DNA from: Sphaerosporella brunnea
Taxonomy: Eukaryota; Ascomycota; Pezizomycetes; Pezizales; Pyronemataceae
DNA length: 64,000 nt
Assembly (NCBI GenBank): GCA_008704415.1
Contig: VXIS01000090.1
Coordinates: 1 to 64,000 of the forward strand
Reading direction: 5' to 3'
The notes under the pieces were generated by a model, which searched no databases, was not told the origin of the DNA, and was given only the letters and a program-made list of their open reading frames with translations. The translations under genes were made by a program, and so were the position numbers. Every line of letters starts with the position of its first letter. The stretch's first letter is position 1. Of the stretch, positions 41,315 to 52,127 are shown in pieces.

Positions 41315-42565
41315 GGTGTAGTTTGGGCTTGGTAGATGGTAAGACTACGGCCCTTCTCTGCTGGCGATAGATGTTGATTTGACGGCAGTTGGGAAGCAAT
41401 GGTGGAGACGTAGTCTCTGGCAGTCTTGTGTGTGAGTTATTTTGCTTGGTTTGGAATGGGTACAAATTCAAGGCGCGTATTAAGGCCGTTCTATGACTTG
41501 CGTGTTTTGATGTTGGCGATGCGGCTGTGGCGGTTGCAGGTTGGACTGAGCGATGAGGAGAGTATGGCACTGGTCACCGGAGGCTGTTCGTACAATAGGT
41601 ACGACATGACTTTGTCACCGTCGGAGGGGGTGTTTCCGAAATAAAAACCTGTCACCAGAGTGTTTTTGTGGCCAAAATAATTACATTGAGAGATAAAATC
41701 CCCTATTTACGCACCACAGGCGAGAAAAAACGCCCGATGTTGGACACGACAATTCTGTTCCATTAGATTATCTCAGATTCTCAGATTCATATTGCCCCGC
41801 TTGTGGTGCCGCTTCCTTTCCAACGAAGTGGAGAGAATCATGGATATAGGTAGTAGTTGGCTAGGAGGTGGGCTTGATTGATCACCAAGGCGACGGTTTG
41901 TATTCCCAATCCTCCAGGTTGGATAAAGGCTCTGCGAGATTCTGTAGTAGGTACTACTCTAGTGAGGGTATGGATTATAGCTGTAGGTACTACGCAGGTT
42001 CCTCTTGGCCCCACCGGTTTGTTGCTCGGATTGTTCAATATTAATTGTGGGAAATGCAGCGGCCCGGATGAATGAATGGTGATATTTCATGTCGTAAATC
42101 TGTGAACTCAATCACGAGTGACAGAAATCAATACTGAGACTACCGCAGCTACATCGTCCATTGAGAACTGCCACAAACTATAGCAAACAATAAGTACTTT
42201 CCACCACAGTTATGGGGAACCAGGCCTTCCTGTTCTGCCGCGGTGTTGTATGGTGGCGCACACCTAGAAGCAGCCCACCTCACCAAAAAACAGCTCCAAC
42301 ATGTTGACCCCGGACATCGCGACCACAACAAAGAAAGTGGAGAAAAGGGCTCCATAAATTTGTAGAGAAGCATCTCGCCTAACAGTCTGCAACGCCAACA
42401 ATAAATTATCCCATCTGGTTGCGACAGAGATAGCACTTGAAATTTTGCGGAGCGAGCCCAAATGAACCCGTCGAGTGAGATTATGTGTATACGCACCTTA
42501 TCACTTATCACTCGAGGTTGCTGAATTAGGCTTAGTTGATCGGCAAAATGAATGGGCACCATAAT
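41315..42565. other. Gene-free stretch left of the transposon
   Basis: 1.25 kb with only short frames (41426-41644, 41838-42075, 42149-42781) of no known family. No repeat shared with the transposon is seen before 42561. Confidence 0.5.
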
Positions 42566-42650
42566 CCCATCTTCCGGTGCCAAGCCATCGCCAGAGCCAG
42601 AGCAGGGGGGGCGGCAGTTAATGGGAGATCGAGTGATACGACGTGAGTAC
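42566..42650 (+). repeat. Left terminal inverted repeat of the piggyBac element
   Basis: Pairs with 51793-51710 in reverse. The outer 37 bases differ at one position only (CCCATCTTCCGGTGCCAAGC then T versus C). A short G-rich indel zone follows, then TTAATGGrAGATCGAGTGA common to both. The CCC start is usual for piggyBac ends. Confidence 0.9.
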
Positions 42651-42669
42651 CGCGTGTGGCAGCAACTGG

Positions 42670-43760
42670 ATTTTTTGGCCCGCGACCTCTCTATCCACGC
42701 CAGCTTCACATCACCAGCTTCCGCTGCTTCACATCGCCAGCTTCGCGTCACCTTCTGCTTCTTCACACCAGCGTTCTGCAAGCCTGTCGCCGAGGCCTTC
42801 GCCGAGCCTTGGTCTTTTGGGTGAGTTCATGCTGCCGCAACTTTGTCAGTTTACATCCGATTGACGCGAGGGTTGATTGTGCAGATTTCTCGGCCCACAA
42901 CCTCTATCCCTGCGACCTCTGCATCCCCGCAACCTCTCCATCCCCGTCCGCGCCTGCAAGTTTTGCGCCACCCTTCAACTGCTTCACCATATCAGCTTCG
43001 CGTCTGCAAGCTTGTTGCCGAGCCTTTCGCCAAGCCCTTCGCCGAGCCTTGGTGTTTTGGGTGAGTTCATGCTGCCGCAACTTTGCCAGTTTACATCCGA
43101 TTGACGCGAGGGTTGATTGTGCAGATTTCTCGGCCCGCGACCTCTGCATCCCCGCGACCTCTGCATCCCCGCGACCTTTGCATCCCCGTGACCTCTCCAT
43201 CCCCGTCCGCGCCTGCAAGTTTTGCGCCACCCTTCAACTGCTTCACCATATCAGCTTTGCGTCTGCAAGCTTGTTGCCGAGCCTTTCGCCGAGCCTTGGT
43301 GTTTCGGGTGAGTTCATGCTGCCGCAACTTTGCCAGTTTACATCCGATTGACGCGAGGGTTGATTGTGCAGATTTTTCGGCCCACAACCTCTATCCCCGC
43401 GACCTCTGCATCCCCGCGATCTCTGCATCCCCGCGACCTCTGCATCCCCGCGACCTCTCCATCCCCGTCCGCGCCTGCAAGTTTTGCGCCACCCTTCAAC
43501 TGCTTCACCATATCAGCTTCACGTCTGCAAGCTTGTCGCCGAGCCCTTCGCCGAGCCTTAGTGTTTTGGGTGAGTTCATGCTGCCGCAACTTTGCCAGTT
43601 TACATCCGATTGACGCGAGGGTTGATTGTACAGATTTCTCGACCCGCCACCTCTCCATTACTGTGAGGTTCACGTCACCTTCTGCTGCTTCACCTACACC
43701 GCTCTGCGTCTGCAAGCCTGTCGCCAGCTTCGCATCACGTTACTTTTTACTGCTTCATCC
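42670..43760 (+). repeat. Left subterminal tandem array, four units of about 250 bp
   Basis: Units begin GTGAGTTCATGCTGCCGCAA at 42821, 43061, 43308 and 43570 (spacing 240, 247, 262), preceded by a partial unit. Each contains CAGTTTACATCCGATTGACG and a variable number of 17-bp subunits (CCCGCGACCTCTGCATC). The size steps reflect different subunit counts. The arrays stay open in several frames, giving spurious peptides. Related but diverged copies lie reversed in the right arm. Confidence 0.92.
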
Positions 43761-43784
43761 ACGCTATTTGGCATCTCCAACCGA

Positions 43785-43925
43785 CTATCCTTCCTTCCTG
43801 CTGTGCTGAAAAGCCAATTCTTGTCTTCTGTTGGATCCAGGTCCCAGAATTCGTCTTGTAGGGGGCGGAAAAAGAAGCGGCTTTTCAGCATGAGCAATCC
43901 TTTAAGGATGGATAGAAGGCCTTTG
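43785..43925 (+). repeat. Leader cassette of the dioxygenase gene (copy 1 of 3)
   Basis: A block of about 140 bp around CAATTCTTGTCTTC and CGGAAAAAGA, ending with the ATGAGCAATC start of the dioxygenase. It recurs as direct copy at 45787-45925 and inverted at 51060-51215, with roughly 15 percent divergence by eye. Confidence 0.85.
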
Positions 43926-45629
43926 GCTTCTCAACAACCTTTTAGCCAGGCACCGCAACCTCCACCACAGAACTTGATTGCAGAGCCTATTCAACCCACA
44001 ACCTCGCCATTTTCACATCCCAACCGGAACATATCTGGACATCGGCTTCCTAAAAGAAAACCTCTAGGCAGTCTGGAGTCATCGGTTTCTTCCTCACGTC
44101 CACGACTTGAAGAAGACCCTCGTATCTATCTAAACAACATCAAAGATCCTACTGCCTTAAACTTTGAATCACTGGAAAGATATTCGAGCAAGCCAAAGAA
44201 AAAAATGTGCAGAGCACTGGAACAGTATTGGAAGAAAACTCCGACAAAAGTTATACACCTGGATGGAAAACAAGGAAGGTATTATTACAACCTTGCTTGG
44301 AACATCCGTCAGTCTCAAAAGAGCCAACCTCGTCTCTCTTCCTTCACCTCAACTCTTGACCTCTCAACCATACTCAGTCCGGTTGTGCAGGTGAATGATG
44401 CTGAGGGACTACCATTAGTCATCAAATGTGGTGAAGCTCTCACAACGGATGTTCTTCATGGTAATATTGGGCAAAGGGTGATGAATGCGGCCTTGGAGTT
44501 CTGTCGGCACACTGGAGGTGGTGGGATTGATAAAGTTCGACATACTCCTCACGTCAACGGAGTTGCTTTGTCAGCAGGAAATGCTGAAACTGCGGCTGAT
44601 CGATTCCAGAGTGGTACTGCTGGTCTTGGTGTGGCTACTGGTACTTCTACGGCTGGTGCTTCCACGGCTGGTGCTTCCACGGCTGGTGCTTCTACGGCTG
44701 GTGCTTCCACGGCTGGTGCTTCTACGGCTGGTGCTTCCACGGCTGGTGCTTCCACGGCTGGTGCTTCTACGGCTGGTGCTTCTACGGCTGGTGCTTCTAC
44801 GGCTGGTGCTTCCACGGCTGGTGCTTCCACGGCTGGTGCTTCTACCACTGATGCTGGTGCTTCTACGGCTGGTGCTTCCACGGCTGGTGCTTCTACGGCT
44901 GGTGCTTCTACGGCTGGTGCTGCTGCTGGAAGACCCTCAAGTGGTGCTACTGCTGCTGGCCAACCAAATGCTGAGCGTAGAAACCGGTGTCAACACATAT
45001 TTCGAGCTCATGCAGCAAGAATGGACGTTAGGGTCAGCAGGCCACATGAAGGCAAGGTGCTAAAACTGTACCACGGCCCACAATCCATATTGGATACAAG
45101 AGAGAAGGCGGATCAACTCATTGCATTTTTGCATCGGTTAGCTCCTTTAACTCAGATACAAGATGCTTGCTTTCAGCACTTTCTCCCTGAAGATCATAAA
45201 CTGTACCTCATGATTGCAAAATCATTGAACAAAACAATTCTTGATCTTGACAGCAAGGATCCTTATCCAGTGCACTTTGGCTGCTGGCCTGCAAGGTCTA
45301 TAGTTCTTAATTCCCCTACAGCCATGCATCGGGATACTGGAGATGCTTGTTGGGGTTTTTGCTGTATTGTTCCACAAGGAAATTTCTCTGGGGGATTTTT
45401 ATGTTTGCCCAGTCTCGGCATCAAATTACCGTGTCCACCTGGTAGTATTATTTTTCTCCGCTCTTATATTTTACCTCACTACATTGAAGACTGGTCTGGG
45501 ACGCGGGTTAGTTTCATTAGTTTTTTACATCAAGATGTGGTGCAGTGGTATGAGGAAAACATCACCAAGCAGAGTGTTTTTCCTATTGAGAATATGCCTG
45601 AATTTTATCGCAATAGGCACCGTCATTAA
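43890..45629 (+). CDS. TET/JBP-like 2-oxoglutarate/Fe(II) dioxygenase, transposon-borne
   Basis: A 579-residue intronless protein inside the piggyBac element. The C-terminal 150 residues form a double-stranded beta-helix dioxygenase: metal ligands H480-x-D482 (AMHRDTGD) and H530 (ILPHYIEDW), the 2-oxoglutarate arginine R539 (GTRVSFISF), the strand FSGGFLCLPSLGIKL and the PPGSIIFLRS turn. This pattern fits the TET/JBP clade that oxidises 5-methylcytosine or thymine in DNA, whose fungal members often ride on transposons; substrate here is inferred. A collagen-like linker of 16 GASTA units plus one GASTTDA (residues 256-342) splits the protein; the N-terminal half (LPLVIKCGEAL, MCRALEQYWKK) is unknown. 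The ATG at 43890 was chosen because upstream in-frame codons lie in the repeat cassette. All catalytic residues are present. Confidence 0.8.
   Translation: MSNPLRMDRRPLASQQPFSQAPQPPPQNLIAEPIQPTTSPFSHPNRNISGHRLPKRKPLGSLESSVSSSRPRLEEDPRIYLNNIKDPTALNFESLERYSSKPKKKMCRALEQYWKKTPTKVIHLDGKQGRYYYNLAWNIRQSQKSQPRLSSFTSTLDLSTILSPVVQVNDAEGLPLVIKCGEALTTDVLHGNIGQRVMNAALEFCRHTGGGGIDKVRHTPHVNGVALSAGNAETAADRFQSGTAGLGVATGTSTAGASTAGASTAGASTAGASTAGASTAGASTAGASTAGASTAGASTAGASTAGASTAGASTAGASTTDAGASTAGASTAGASTAGASTAGAAAGRPSSGATAAGQPNAERRNRCQHIFRAHAARMDVRVSRPHEGKVLKLYHGPQSILDTREKADQLIAFLHRLAPLTQIQDACFQHFLPEDHKLYLMIAKSLNKTILDLDSKDPYPVHFGCWPARSIVLNSPTAMHRDTGDACWGFCCIVPQGNFSGGFLCLPSLGIKLPCPPGSIIFLRSYILPHYIEDWSGTRVSFISFLHQDVVQWYEENITKQSVFPIENMPEFYRNRHRH
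44655..44915 (+). repeat. 15-bp coding minisatellite (GASTA)
   Basis: Twelve units of GGTGCTTCYACGGCT, then one variant unit followed by GATGCT, then four more units. Differences are nearly all a silent TCT/TCC change, which suggests recent expansion with unit shuffling. On the opposite strand it reads VEAPA, an artefact. Confidence 0.97.
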
Positions 45630-45764
45630 TAAAATGATTTTCTTTCTCTGTATTTCTTATGTTTTTTTTTTGGTAAATCTAAAGCCTAAAAACCTTCCAC
45701 CGCTCTATCCCCACCAGCTTCGCTTAACCTACAACTCAATCCATCGCACACCGACCAAAAAGAT

Positions 45765-46085
45765 TCATGCGCCGAGCCCCTGTCCTTCCTTCCTGCCATG
45801 CTGAAAGGCCAATTCTTGTCTTCCTTTGGATGTAGGTCCCGGAATTCGTCTTGCAGTGGGCGGAAAAAGAGGAGGCTTTTCAGTATGAGCAATCTATGAA
45901 GGACAGACAGAAGGCCATTGGCGCGCGGTGCTGTGTATTCTGGGTACGCTTCCCCTTTAATAACTTTGTCAGTTTTCACAGGATTGACTTGGGGTTTCAA
46001 GCTGCAGATTACCTATTCTCCACATGGCACACTCCAAACCCCTGAACCCGTTTTTCATCACACGCTGAGTCCTGGGCTGAGTCTC
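45765..46085 (+). repeat. Inner inverted repeat, left arm
   Basis: About 320 bp that matches 51230-50880 in reverse: cassette copy, GCGCGCGGTGCTGTGTATTC, ATAACTTTGTCAGTTTTCAC, TTCAAGCTGCAGATTACC and ACGCTGAGTCCTGGGC blocks all line up. It separates the dioxygenase gene from the coiled-coil and transposase genes, so these two genes are bracketed by their own inverted repeat inside the larger element. Confidence 0.85.
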
Positions 46086-46837
46086 CAAGTTTGAATACGT
46101 AAAGCCACGGAGCGAGCATAAGATTTGGTCTATCTACACAGTTGCTACACAATTCATACACATCAGTGCTCCTTGCACTCCCTTCAAAACCAAACTTCGA
46201 TGAAACCAGACCCATCCAAGCAAAACTAAACGCCCTCAAGACCGACCCATTCAAGCAAATCTAAATACTATCAAGATCGAACAATCCAAGCAAAATCAAA
46301 CGCTGTTAACACCTGACCCGGGAGTTTCCCTACTTACCTTAAAGGTTTTGATCACTAGCAACTCAAAGCCACTGATCAGAAATCTCAGTCTTTCGTCTGC
46401 GACCAAATCATAAGATTTCTGATTTAGGCACTAAAGCACCAGGGACAGAAAGCTCCTCCTCCAAAGGAAGAGAAAACAACCCTTTAGTTTACCGTCATTT
46501 CGGACATCTTGCCGGCAAATAAAGAAGTGACCCACGATAGGTGATACAAAATTGACCGTCCAACCTTTTGCCCACGCTCATATCAGATTAACCCTGAGAG
46601 CGGCCTTACAGACTTGGGAGCTGGAAAAGTACTGTCCGTAACACCACACGCAATACAAACCACTGGAGGAGTATGATGTAGCACTGTATTGATCCACATG
46701 CTCATACCCGAGCTCACATCAGATAAACTCAGGGGGCAGCCTTACAGACCGACCAACAACCAATGCTCACATACTCTGGCCTGCGGTCACCTCAACGGTA
46801 CAAGTAAGGACTGGCGCCCCGGGTTCTAAATCAAATG

Positions 46838-47467
46838 TTAGTTGAGAAAGTGGTATGTCAGTGTTGGGAATACATGCACCGCCTCCTTCTTCCATCTCGC
46901 ACCCTGCCGCTGCGAATCTAGTATCCGGGTTTTCAACCTATCTTGCTCCTCCCGGAGCAGGCGATTGTCCTCCAGGACCTCGCGATTTTGCGCCTGCAGG
47001 TGTGCCACCTCCCGCTGGAGGTTCTCCACCTTTGTCCGCCATTGAGCCTCATGACGGGCAAGTTCATTCTCCCATTGCTCCTGGAGGAAGCGCTCCCGGA
47101 CGGCCTGGTCCTGTTGGACCGCTGCTGGTACATGAGAACAGAGGAAGGAAAGATACTCCTGCTGTTGCCTTTGGTGAAGCACGCCGAGGTGGAAAATCCG
47201 ATCTAGTGCTGGACCGGAAGCGGAGGGAGTGGCGGGAGCAGCAAGGGCAGGAGCAAGAGCGAAAGGGGCCAGATCGGGAGCAAAAGTGGTAGGAGCGACA
47301 GGAGCGGGAGCAGGAGTAGGAGCAGCAGCAACAGCAGCAGCCGAAGTGGTGGGGATAACTGGAGTAGCAGACATCGTTTGAGGTGATATTCTGATGCGTT
47401 TTTGTAATCGGGTAAACTGAGATGGTTTTTGTCTGGATTTTGATATCTTACGGCGTGTTTTGTTCAT
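46838..47467 (-). CDS. Transposon-borne coiled-coil protein, unknown function
   Basis: A 209-residue frame on the minus strand between the dioxygenase and transposase genes. I placed the start at 47467 (MNKTRRKISKSRQKPS), which gives a basic N-terminus; an ATG at 47569 would add 34 residues with a Cys/Leu-rich stretch, and one at 47374 (MSATPVIPTTS) is also possible. Residues 35-85 are Ala/Pro-rich (AAPTPAPAPVAPTTFAPD). The C-terminal half is a long amphipathic helix (QWRTKVENLQREVAHLQAQN, EDNRLLREEQDRLKTRILDS) with leucines in heptad positions, predicting a coiled-coil dimer. No catalytic motif. It is head to head with the transposase gene, so it may be co-expressed; DNA binding to the subterminal repeats is a guess. 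Confidence 0.65.
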   Translation of the reverse strand: MNKTRRKISKSRQKPSQFTRLQKRIRISPQTMSATPVIPTTSAAAVAAAPTPAPAPVAPTTFAPDLAPFALAPALAAPATPSASGPALDRIFHLGVLHQRQQQEYLSFLCSHVPAAVQQDQAVRERFLQEQWENELARHEAQWRTKVENLQREVAHLQAQNREVLEDNRLLREEQDRLKTRILDSQRQGARWKKEAVHVFPTLTYHFLN

Positions 47468-47859
47468 GGTAAGGCAGAAAAAAAGCTGTGCCAGGTGACA
47501 GAGGACTGAGTTTATTTTGTGCTTGCTACTCATACTGTTCACCGTGCACAGGTGTACTGTTCCATCCAAGTTCAGCCTTTACTCTGCGCCACGGATTCAG
47601 GTGTATTGTGAGCTTGCAATACTCAAAAGAGCAAGCGAGCCGGCCCACACCAGGTTCTGTGTCTCGGATTCAGCTAGTCTTCAGCTGGGTTTACCGGCTT
47701 GCAATACCAAAAAAGGAAGCGGGCCGGTTCATCCCGTATGTTGGTTCGGATTCAACATCCTTAAGGGGTAAAGTCTTTTGGATATTCGCGGAATCTACTT
47801 AATTCCCACTTCATATTCCCCATCTGGCATCAAACACGGGGTTTATATTTTGCCATATT
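47468..47859. promoter_or_regulatory. Divergent promoter region of coiled-coil and transposase genes
   Basis: Under 400 bp between two outward-facing start codons within the transposon. TTTATATTTTGCCATATT at 47842-47857 is a TATA-like stretch close to the transposase ATG. Confidence 0.4.
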
Positions 47860-50334
47860 ATGCATCCTGCAATTCATCGTGTACACCTTACAACAACAAT
47901 GACCACCACCATGCAAACTCCAGCGGCTATTGATGACGACGTATTAATGCAGGCAGTCTATGATGACCATATTCAGAATGACTGCAGCGGTGATGAGGAG
48001 GAGAACAATGAGGAGGAAGATAGTGAGGAGGACAATGAGGAGGACAATGAAGAGGAGGAGATGGATGAAGGAGAAGACGATGAAGGTTCAGAAATGTGTG
48101 AAAGTGTTTGCGGGTATGAATTGGAAAGGCCACAGAAGAGGAAACGGAACACAGAATTTGAACACGACAACGATAACGAATGGTTACCTGACCCGGTTAC
48201 ACACCTTCCGCCATCTCTTGATCGCACTCTCGATCAAGCCGACGACAATTTCGACCCGATCACAAAGGAGACGTGGCCTGATGTGTACATTCCGCCATCT
48301 CTCGGCAATGCGTTTGCAGAAAATGGTGAGGAGGAAAAATTTACTCCTTTCCAATCTCCACATTCCCGCCACAATGCAACGTCCAACCTACCTCCCAATC
48401 ACAAAAGCAGTAGTCCGTTAGCGTTCTTCCATCTTTATTTTCCACAAAGTGTAATGCAGCAAGTGGCGGCTAACACAAATTCTTATGCGGAATTGAAACG
48501 CACATCCAATGGCAAGCCACAACAAAGACCATGGAAAGACACAACTTCCAGTGAGCTTTACCGCTGGATTGCTCTCCTGCTCTACATGTCAATCGTGAGG
48601 AACAGTGGGAGTGAAAAATGTGTGGAGGATTACTGGTCTCTTCCAAAAGAAGACAACTTTGTCGAGACAATTCATCGTCCAATGCAAGATGGAGGGATTT
48701 CACTAGTACGATTCGAGCAAATCAAGCGGTTCTTGCATATCTCTCCACCGGAAAAGACACCTGCTGTTCCAGCCCAACCATCTTCTGGTCGCCGACGCAA
48801 AAAAAATACACAACCATCCGTGTATGATAAGCTAGAGCCTCTTGCATCGCAGGTGGTTCAAAGCTCTAAAGACTATCTCATGCCAGCTACCGAGCTTTCT
48901 TTAGATGAGATGATGATCAAATTCAAAGGGAAAAGCGCCGATACGAACATCGTTAAGAACAAGCCAATTAAAAGAGGACACAAGATCTTCGCTCTTTGCT
49001 GGAGAGGGTACACTTGGGATTGGCGATACAGCTCTCGTACAAGGGGGATCATCAATGTTCCATCCAAAAAAAAACCTCGACGGATTCAAGTTAGTGAAGA
49101 TGAGAAAAAGCTCACCAACACGGCCAAAATGGTACTAGAGCTCGCCGAAACTCTGCCGGAAGACAAATTGTTCCACATCTACATGGACAATTACTTCACC
49201 TCGGTACCTCTTCTTCAGGCTCTTCGAAGGCGTGGCATTGGGGCCGCTGGAACCGCGAGACAAAATGCGAACGGGCTTCCAAAAGAATTCACAGCGGCCA
49301 AGAAAAGGAAAGCGAATTTTGTGTGGAATACCCTAAAAGCAAAACTGGTAGGAGACAAGCAGGTGTTGGCCTTCCAATGGATAGATAATAATTATGTCAA
49401 CTTTCTGACAACTATCCACAAAGTCAACGGCCGACCAAATTATGTGGTATGTAAAAGGAGACGCCCTGCCGACAAGAAGAAGGACAAACTTTCGACGAAT
49501 GCTCGGAAACAGTTCAGGGAGGGAGAATATGTCAAGCTTTTCCCAATACCAAAGGCGATCTATCAGTACAACCACTTCATGGGAGGAGTTGATATTCACG
49601 ATCAAAAGCGGGCCCACTTAACCACTCATCTCAGAACTCGAAGAAATTGGCTCTGTCTTTTTTTTTGGCTGCTTGATCTTATTGTCATCAACGCGCATAT
49701 TCTGTATCAGATAGCATATCGAGAAGCGCAGCAAGTAGAAGAGCGACAAGCACAGCGAGAAGGACGAGAAGTGAAAAAACCAAAAGAAGGCATGCTCACC
49801 CACAAGCAATTTCGTATGCGCCTTGTACGAGAGCTTATTCAGTCTTATCGTGACGACGCAGAAACCTCTGTGCAAGAAGCGAAGAAGTCTGCTGCTAAAA
49901 AAGGGTAAGTCAGCTTTATTCCAATGTATGTAGACAGAACAGAGACTTACCAACTCGGAATTTGTAGTGCGCAAAAGCTACATCTCGGTGGGCTAGACAA
50001 ACCTCTTCCATCTGGCGATCACCAGCCAAGCAAGTTCCACAGGAAAGGGCCTTGCGCATTGTGCAAGCTTTGTCGACAACTAAGCGACGCTGAGAAACCT
50101 GTAAGGCAAGTGCTGGGAGATATTTTGCCCAATGCAATGACGACAAGGCCCGCAAAATGGAATCCAAAACACCATCACAACTATGATTGGCAACCGGGTG
50201 GCACTGGAAAAAGACCGACAGAAACAGTATGGCATTGCGACCTCTGTAATGTCCATCTTTGCCCGAACAAGTGTTTTGCAATATATCATGAGAAACGACG
50301 AGCGGGAGTATCGCTCGAGTTTGACGATGGTTGA
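47860..50334 (+). CDS. PiggyBac-family DDD transposase
   Basis: An 803-residue transposase, exons 47860-49904 and 49968-50334; the 63-bp intron (GTAAGT..TTTGTAG) joins SAAKKG to AQKLHLGGLD. The N-terminus is very acidic (residues 38-80). The RNase H-like catalytic core has D349 (LSLDEMMIKFKG), D443 (FHIYMDNYFTSVPLL) and D578 with D581 (MGGVDIHDQKRAHL), the conserved piggyBac acidic set. The second exon carries the C-terminal cysteine-rich domain (CALCKLCRQ .. WHCDLCNVHLCPNKCFAIYH) that binds transposon ends in this family. No stop or frameshift, so it may be active. A later in-frame ATG at 47899 is an alternative start. Confidence 0.93.
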
Positions 50335-50434
50335 GTTTAAAATTGTTTTGCTTTGAAGGTTCAGTCTCGGCGGCATTGGGTCTCTTCTTCTCGTCGTCTT
50401 GACGGCGTTCGGTCTCTTATTCTTGTGGTCTCGA

Positions 50435-50554
50435 CGGCATTGTGTGGTTTGGTCTCAGCGGCATTGTGTGGTTTGGTCTCAGCGGCATTGTGTGGTTTGG
50501 TCTCAGCGGCATTGTGTGGTTTGGTCTCAGCGGCATTGTGTGGTTTGGTCTCGG
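50435..50554 (+). repeat. 24-bp tandem repeat, five copies
   Basis: Five identical units CGGCATTGTGTGGTTTGGTC plus TCAG at 50435, 50459, 50483, 50507 and 50531, flanked by degenerate half-units. It lies 100 bp after the transposase stop codon. Confidence 0.97.
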
Positions 50555-50799
50555 CGGCATTCTTGTGTTTCGGCTTTTGGTCTCAGCGGCTTTTGGTCTG
50601 CTTGCATGGTTTAGTCTTGGCGGTCTTTGTGGAAAAAGGAACACCTATGGTGTGTGTGGACGGGATGGGAATGAAATTAAACGAACGGTTACGAGTGCAC
50701 CAGTCTCCAGACAAAACATAGACTTGTGAACCGCGCAGTGCAAGTTCCCAAGTCTAAGAATTACAAGCGCTGGCTACCAGTGGTGCTGCAACTGAACGC

Positions 50800-51415
50800 G
50801 TAAAAGAAAACTCCAAGTCAATCGGATAAAAACTGACAGCCTAGTTGTGGTCGGAAAAGCGTACTCAAAACATAGAGACTTGGCACAGGACTCGGCGTGC
50901 GCTGCAACACAGGTTTGGGGGTTTGGAACGTGGAATGTGGAACGTGGAGCGTGGAGCATTGAGAATGTGGTGGGTAATCTGCAGCTTGAAACACCAAGTC
51001 AATTCAGTAAAAACTGACAAAGTTATTGAAGGGGAAGCGTACCCAGAACACACAGCTCCGCGCGCCAATGGCCTTCTGTTTATCCTTCATAGATTACTCA
51101 TGCTGAAAAGCCTCCGCTTTTTCCACCCACTGCAAGGCGAATCCCGGGACCTACATCCAACGGAAGACAAGAATTGGCCTTTCAGCATGGCAGGAAGGGA
51201 AGACAGCGGCTCGGCGCAGGACTCGGCATGGAACGTGACACGGGTTTGGGTGTTTGGAGTATGGAGCATAGAGGATACGATGCGGTGGGTAATCTGCAGC
51301 TTGAAACACCAAGTCAATCCAGTGAAAACTGACAAAGTTATGGTCGGAAAAGCGTACTCAAAACACAGCGGCACGGCACAGCGGCTCGGCGTGCAACAGA
51401 TCGTATGGTAGAAGG
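50800..51415 (-). repeat. Right subterminal repeats and inner inverted repeat, right arm
   Basis: Three reversed copies of the ACTTTGTCAGTTTTCACTGG/TTGACTTGGTGTTTC block, at about 50815-50870, 50970-51050 and 51297-51365, match the left array units (ACTTTGCCAGTTTACATCCG). The central one continues into the cassette copy 51060-51215. The left arm thus has four to five copies and the right arm three, all pointing inward. Confidence 0.85.
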
Positions 51416-51709
51416 TCGCGCGAAGTGGCGGGGATGGAGCGGTACAAGGTCGCGTGGGTGTGGAGAAGGAGACTGTACTGAACGTTAGCAATTATCGCAC
51501 GAAACGTGGGAACCTGCTGAGCACAAACCGTACTTTAGAGCTACCAGCACATAGACCAGTGCACCGCATACTGCAAGAGTGCAAGCGTATGGAAAGCTCA
51601 CTAAATTCTGTCTGCCGCCGCTGAGGTTTGGTGGTAGTGGTGGTGGTGCGCGTTCGAACCCGTGCAGCCAGACGCGCAGTCAGATACACACGTGATATTT
51701 TTTATCTAC

Positions 51710-51793
51710 ATTGCACTCACTGCATCTCACTCGATCTTCCATTAACCGTCGCCCCCCTCTGGCTCTGGCGGTGGCTTGGCACCGGAAGATGGG
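51710..51793 (-). repeat. Right terminal inverted repeat of the piggyBac element
   Basis: Reverse complement of the left TIR: outer 37 bases with one mismatch, then a three-base length difference in the G-rich zone and the common TTAATGGAAGATCGAGTGA. ATAA follows at 51794-51797. Confidence 0.9.
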
Positions 51794-52127
51794 ATAAGTT
51801 GCGCTGACACAAACCCCGTGTAGCTGAGATCGTGGCTTTCGGTCAACAATGATTTTACCAAGAACGTCCGGTAATGCGGGGAATTGGGCTCAGCTACGGA
51901 AAGGCCCATTTTTGCACATTATCATACAATAAATCATCGAGTGAAAGAAGTATCCGATGAAGGAGTCCAGTCACGTGAATTCCAGCCCTCTGATTGGTTC
52001 CGGCTTGTCCCTTCGTGCCGAAACGCCCCCCCCCCAGTTTTCTCCCGAGAATCGCCAACATCACCCGCCGCTCGAACCCCACGCACCTTCATCTCTCTCC
52101 GCTCTTCCTCCCCCCACAACATTCACA

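Follow-up and report, generated by a model that had tools for sequence, protein, structure and literature searches.

A piggyBac-superfamily transposon of Sphaerosporella brunnea with a TET/JBP-like dioxygenase inside its terminal inverted repeats

The first 64,000 nucleotides of contig VXIS01000090.1 of the fungus Sphaerosporella brunnea (assembly GCA_008704415.1) are in the following referred to as the window; the contig is labelled C631, the window is accordingly C631:1-64000, and all other C-numbers denote contigs of the same assembly (50.6 Mb, 640 contigs). At 42564..51796 the window contains a DNA transposon whose terminal inverted repeats (TIRs) enclose both a piggyBac-type transposase and a TET/JBP-like 2-oxoglutarate (2OG)-Fe(II) dioxygenase. 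The assignment of the element and of the enzyme family is in our view highly probable. Taken as a whole, the element is rather probably a recently active cut-and-paste transposon of the piggyBac superfamily with a captured TET/JBP dioxygenase that would counteract silencing by 5-methylcytosine (5mC). For the last part of this reading, the anti-silencing function of the enzyme on 5mC, the chances appear about evenly balanced.

The reading is carried by a second complete copy of the element at C631:90034-99300, which begins 47.5 kb farther on in the contig and was found as an identical or near-identical match by the transposase profile, dioxygenase protein and transposase protein searches alike. 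The two copies (copy 1 in the window and copy 2) are 99.6% identical over 9.2 kb and differ by three substitutions and one gap of a 34-bp tandem unit, which is located in the 5' subterminal repeats, where copy 2 carries the extra piece. In the alignment the flanks are unlike on both sides, starting with the first bases outside the element, and BLAST revealed no further likeness adjoining the element between the two copies. Because the full second copy has other flanks, the dioxygenase and the transposase moved together, recently and as one unit, inside one pair of inverted repeats. The element is therefore a TET+ DNA transposon in the sense of a TET gene and a transposase that lie within one TIR pair and are jointly mobile. 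An earlier note on this DNA had described one 9.2-kb unit holding both genes, that is a piggyBac-superfamily element whose own inverted repeats enclose a TET/JBP-like dioxygenase; copy 2, which shares the ends and contains both genes, bears this out, and the situation named there as speaking against the proposal, further copies in which the two genes never lie within common TIRs, was not encountered. Since the 9-kb copies differ by only three bases besides the 34-bp gap, there is no sign of repeat-induced point mutation (RIP) in them. Two of the three substitutions are at CpG, a number too small to interpret.

The limits of the element were set by comparison with copy 2, and its core TCCC...GGGA corresponds to 42565-51794. 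The left TIR (42564..42648, plus strand) and the right TIR (51715..51796, minus strand) match each other in inverted orientation with 86% identity over approximately 82 bp (E 1.2e-20 in the genome search). The ends had been called near-identical, which is true for the outer 44 nt (93%) but not for the inner part, where the adjoining 43 nt are 84% alike.

Termini of the family were located via their likeness to the element's own ends, so that full information comes only from the T and the bases that precede it; internal matches and matches next to other piggyBac groups (C638, C391, C290) were left out, and each terminus was counted once. TATCCC is found at 13 of the 14 distinct readable termini, where the bases preceding the TA vary, and none of the 14 follows TTAA. 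The remaining one, the left terminus of copy 1, reads ATAATCCC, with AA where TA is expected, and agrees less well with TA^TA. Dispersed repeats surround or adjoin both copies (window 42249-42557 with 37 matches and, at copy 2, about 1766-2033 of the stretch labelled L030 with 31 matches, self included). The repeat in which copy 2 sits has 30 other matches. Of these, five empty sites were fetched (C12, C10, C65, C58, C90) and compared with L030 1990-2050; all five show TATA at the position where the occupied site has TA-element-TA. For copy 1 no usable empty site was obtained, as in the five fetched places similarity with its flanking dispersed repeat stops short of the insertion point. Because the empty relatives of the copy 2 site read TATA, the simplest reading is that TCCC...GGGA would have been inserted into TA^TA without net duplication; an ancestor of the copy 2 site with a single TA instead of TATA is conceivable as well. 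The canonical piggyBac duplication of a TTAA target is contradicted by the absence of TTAA from all 14 termini and by the TATA empty sites. In another piggyBac group of the same genome (C202, C391, C501, C16) inverted repeats were seen in four of the ten loci examined, and in all four both ends carry TATCCC; its copies on C501 and C16 share 99.6% identity across 2.4 kb and have different flanks.

The transposase is encoded on the plus strand. Its first exon (47860..49904, DDE_Tnp_1_7) matches PF13843 with an E of 1.8e-53 and contains the Asp residues in SLDE, YMDNYF and GGVDIHDQ. The solved piggyBac transposase 6x67 was found with an E of 2e-11, and SLDE, YMDN and GGVDIHDQ are aligned opposite its three Asp motifs. 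We take 6x67/6x68 to be the transposase of Trichoplusia ni piggyBac, an element which to our knowledge carries no dioxygenase. The stop codon of the exon 1 frame (TAA at 49906-49908) falls within GTAAGT, the start of a putative 63-nt intron (49905..49967, plus strand) that reads GTAAGT ... ACTTACCAAC ... TTTGTAG, with ACTTACCAAC resembling a branch site. Removal of this intron results in an 803-aa frame that ends in a Cys-rich zinc finger (exon 2, 49968..50334, plus strand), and the exon 2 part matches zf-Tnp_2 of Pfam with an E of 6.1e-4 at 20.7 bits, below the cut-off of 24, the finger being linked to the transposase only through the intron. Related transposase copies on C24, C396 and C424 span the junction in one uninterrupted frame, while the loci on C295, C82 and C117 do not contain the scanned motif and are uninformative. 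We infer that the intron is spliced, which would add the zinc finger. The full-length DDD transposase of the earlier note is supported by the PF13843 match and the 6x67 alignment, and includes the finger only if the 63-nt intron is spliced. Named relatives of the transposase include proteins from Rhizophagus, Paraglomus and Scytalidium, and two animals are among the weaker matches. In S. brunnea itself related transposases with 59-64% identity (best pieces) are present on at least nine contigs (C24, C3, C117, C396, C356, C295, C424, C82, C468); 65 of 97 candidates were scored in this search, and counts of relatives are therefore lower bounds.

The dioxygenase is encoded by one open frame of 579 aa at 43890..45629 on the plus strand. 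The Pfam profile Tet_JBP (PF12851) matches it with an E of 5.6e-4 and 19.6 bits, the curated cut-off being 34.9, and its relatives P0001, P0002 and P0062 with E values of 5.3e-5, 5.1e-7 and 6.1e-6 (22.9-29.5 bits). Precomputed annotation lists PF12851.14 for P0002 and P0062 and not for P0001; P0062 is 142 aa long and covers only the part with the catalytic residues. Solved CcTet of Coprinopsis cinerea (7vpn, 7w5p, 8jkk) was found with an E of 4.6e-6 in a single-sequence search of the PDB and of 1.5e-4 in a profile search, in which two NgTET sequences gave weak matches (E 0.033 and 0.044) that do not extend to H-x-D. No Pfam match to AlkB was seen in the dioxygenase up to an E of 1. Profile searches thus did not place the enzyme outside TET/JBP, which the earlier note had named as a ground for rejection; TET/JBP is the nearest family, with scores below the Pfam cut-off. 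Within the gene an in-frame 15-bp tandem repeat encoding (GASTA)n (44593..44928, plus strand) is absent from P0001 and P0002. This repeat dominated a first protein search, in which three of the five matches were, because of low coverage or of the Pfam domains present, judged unrelated; a search with an alignment lacking the repeat yielded three proteins, one of them new. Viral contigs were also scanned for the dioxygenase, and none of the 16 pattern matches was confirmed.

The complete H-x-D..H..R set claimed for the enzyme is indeed present in this one frame. The motif H480-x-D482-x-x-D485 (45327..45344, plus strand) supplies the metal ligands H and D, and the distal His530 and Arg539 (45477..45506, plus strand) are by analogy with the superfamily assigned to metal and 2-oxoglutarate binding, respectively. 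H480, D482, H530 and R539 are invariant in all four aligned family members, metagenome relatives included, and together with D485 in all eight proteins when four paralogs from the same genome are added. CcTet shares similarity in the core sequence, and its H-R-D motif is aligned with H480-R-D482; it differs in that its Gly331 corresponds to Asp485 and its Asp337 to Cys491 of the window enzyme. The enzyme was compared with the AG type (Kyakuja/Zisupton) and the PE type only, and fits neither hallmark, because Cys491 stands at the position of Asp337 and H-R-D is found instead of the H-x-E of the PE type.

All 39 candidates were scored when the genome contigs were searched with the dioxygenase protein. 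The 21 matches comprise the two copies, three pieces on C37, one fragment on C80, 12 distant paralogs with 26-33% identity and three matches judged to be due to the GASTA repeat. A genome search with the PF12851 profile had a single hit, on C51, which at 31.6 bits is below the cut-off; as the search did not recover the dioxygenase of the window, it is unusable as a count of TET genes. The C37 pieces belong to one decayed gene (52-59% identity), which is adjoined by subterminal repeats of the window element's family; no transposase match was found within the 10 kb read there. The C80 fragment is likewise decayed (71% identity). Between the window dioxygenase and that of C37 the differences at codon positions 1/2/3 are 157/122/274 in 461 codons, and for the C80 fragment 14/5/28 in 61 codons. 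As the differences pile up at third codon positions, this indicates that the protein was probably under purifying selection in the past, before the C37 and C80 copies decayed. A similar third-position excess is seen when the transposase is compared to five relatives. With respect to the 12 distant paralogs, nine retain H-x-D-x-x-D-W and the distal His; the C400 paralog has HVDQEDW, in which H-x-D is retained, and terminates early; in the C523 and C543 paralogs Tyr replaces the first His. The paralogs on C635 and C446 adjoin opposite-strand open frames which are alike by eye and which presumably recall an EnSpm/Plavaka-type transposase, although the C635 frame was without a match in a Pfam scan.

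The host genome contains matches to C5-cytosine methyltransferases (DNA_methylase) on three contigs, C5, C282 and C608. Those at C5:6009-6952 and C282:16087-16680 are C5-cytosine methyltransferase-like with a PCQ motif in the translation, and the gene on contig C5 carries SPPCQPHSPAHT, which we assume to reflect a resemblance to RID/Masc1. The ratio of observed to expected CpG amounts to 0.98 in the 5' and 0.93 in the 3' subterminal region, to 0.93 and 0.89 in the flanks and to 0.85 in the transposase. It is 0.53 in the dioxygenase gene and 0.44 in the core of the gene. TpG/CpA are raised in the dioxygenase gene, and its low CpG could stem from a different origin or from methylation in the past.

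On the preferred reading, the dioxygenase would oxidise 5mC, to 5-hydroxymethylcytosine and further, broadly on host chromatin and not only on the element. Such oxidation would relieve cytosine-methylation silencing, or premeiotic methylation and RIP, of the element copies, and with that relief the transposase could be expressed and the copies would stay unmutated. A more specific version, in which a TA^TA-inserting, non-duplicating piggyBac lineage encodes a non-AG, non-PE TET oxidase that keeps its copies free of methylation and RIP and hence near-identical over 9 kb, is put forward only tentatively. The earlier note had in addition assumed an oxidation aimed at the element itself, a self-demethylation. 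This finds no support; oxidised 5mC in Coprinopsis is described also on other transposons and the centromere (PMC12730594). Several observations weigh against a function on 5mC or against the family assignment. Tet_JBP matches all four family members below its curated cut-off. In the PDB search 12 of the 14 matches are not dioxygenases, and 11 of these 12 lie on or beside the GASTA repeat, the remaining two of the 14 being CcTet. The AlphaFold models are of low confidence, with a predicted local distance difference test (pLDDT) score of 31.9 for the whole dioxygenase and 34.2 for the catalytic part, and do not confirm the fold. The subterminal repeats, which the earlier note called CpG-rich and regarded as the enzyme's target, were rejected as such: the 5' and 3' blocks contain 7.7 and 6.0 CpG per 100 bp, the mean of the left flank being 6.3 (standard deviation 1.0), and 11% of the left-flank windows are at least as dense in CpG as the 5' block. 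Asp337, reported as essential in CcTet for activity on 5mC and not on 6-methyladenine (6mA), both of which CcTet oxidises, is replaced by Cys491, though Asp485 occupies the Gly331 position (PMC12730594). Finally, the genome-wide dioxygenase search gave no close match on any of the nine contigs with 59-64% identical transposases; among these, C24 alone was read over 5 kb, the other comparisons resting on matched pieces, and the two distant paralogs on C24 are more than 40 kb away. Because the nine contigs are without a close match, transposition does not need the dioxygenase as far as seen, and one branch of the transposon family acquired it.

This last finding, together with the decay of the C37 and C80 copies, would also be expected if the dioxygenase were a passenger, captured by chance with neighbouring repeats and of no benefit to the element. 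We consider this unlikely, as the third-position excess indicates selection on the protein, the catalytic set is intact in the metagenome relatives and repeated capture of TET genes is described for 11 other lineages of transposons (PMC12730594). Thymine and 6mA are also among the substrates of the TET/JBP family, and with thymine, as in JBP, or 6mA as substrate the enzyme would tune transposase binding or replication timing instead of acting on 5mC silencing. The Cys at the position of Asp337, a CcTet residue reported as essential for 5mC and not for 6mA (PMC12730594), favours this possibility. Against it stand the host methyltransferase matches, which are of the C5-cytosine class, and Asp485 at H+5, which we take to be the 5mC-contacting place of NgTET1 (Asp234) and TET2 (Asn1387), and on balance another substrate seems improbable to us. 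The internal inverted repeats at 45762-46013 and 50973-51224 suggest a complex history, and one could imagine a dioxygenase gene that merely happens to be enclosed by both ends of an old, nested transposon. Such an arrangement is contradicted on the present assembly by copy 2, which holds all 9.2 kb with other flanks, and by the repeats of the same family that adjoin the C37 relative; we regard it as hardly credible.

The remaining parts of the element consist mainly of repeats. Four copies of a 259-nt unit, with spacings of 228-262 and 61-100% alike, form the 5' subterminal repeats (42647..43654), and the 3' subterminal repeats (50808..51381) are common to the related piggyBac copy on C24. 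The internal inverted repeat mentioned above (45762..46013) comprises 252 bp and is 92% alike to its partner. Repeat analysis of the window further revealed 24-bp tandem repeats at 50402..50593. A 243-aa open frame on the minus strand (46838..47569) is proline/alanine-rich and coiled-coil-like; it gave weak Pfam matches only, none above cut-off, and is uncertain as a real gene. Elsewhere in the window an open frame at 805-2055 presumably resembles the end of a Ty3-type retrotransposon with the integrase and chromodomain.

No piggyBac TET+ element is reported in the literature covered, which leaves out most subscription papers and all preprints; where the papers checked mention JBP, they cite Iyer et al. 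2014, reportedly an earlier work on TET+ fungal DNA transposons. A recent survey lists 11 TET+ lineages of DNA transposons, more than the Kyakuja-Dileera-Zisupton type to which the earlier note had limited the carriers, and an escape from methylation silencing is proposed there, not experimentally validated (Kojima 2025, PMC12730594). The term piggyBac does not occur in the main text of that survey. Like these elements, the window element carries a TET/JBP dioxygenase beside the transposase within its ends, and the same escape from silencing is proposed for them; it differs in its piggyBac carrier and in an enzyme with H-x-D, not the H-x-E of the PE type, and without the Asp337 of CcTet and the AG type (PMC12730594). 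The best reading is that the piggyBac carrier lineage is new relative to that survey, and that the strategy of 5mC oxidation is already known from other elements. With respect to the transposon itself, Ti-tr1 of Tuber indicum is similar in being a fungal element with a piggyBac-like DDE_Tnp_1_7 (pfam13843) transposase, TIRs and TA, not TTAA, at its ends, but it has 52-bp TIRs, no dioxygenase is mentioned in the text accessible to us, and its TA is reported as a target duplication, whereas copy 2 of the window element indicates TA^TA without net duplication (PMC3864998). The three catalytic Asp motifs are shared with the transposase 6x67/6x68, which differs in its target TTAA, the one stated for piggyBac in the same paper (PMC3864998).

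Judging from the empty sites, insertion at TA^TA without duplication may be a feature of some fungal relatives of piggyBac, in contrast to TTAA elements. The near-identical pair of copies makes the idea of an anti-silencing function testable. The capture of TET/JBP genes by transposons extends to the piggyBac superfamily, a finding that supports the view of DNA-base oxidation as a recurrent counter-defence of mobile DNA.

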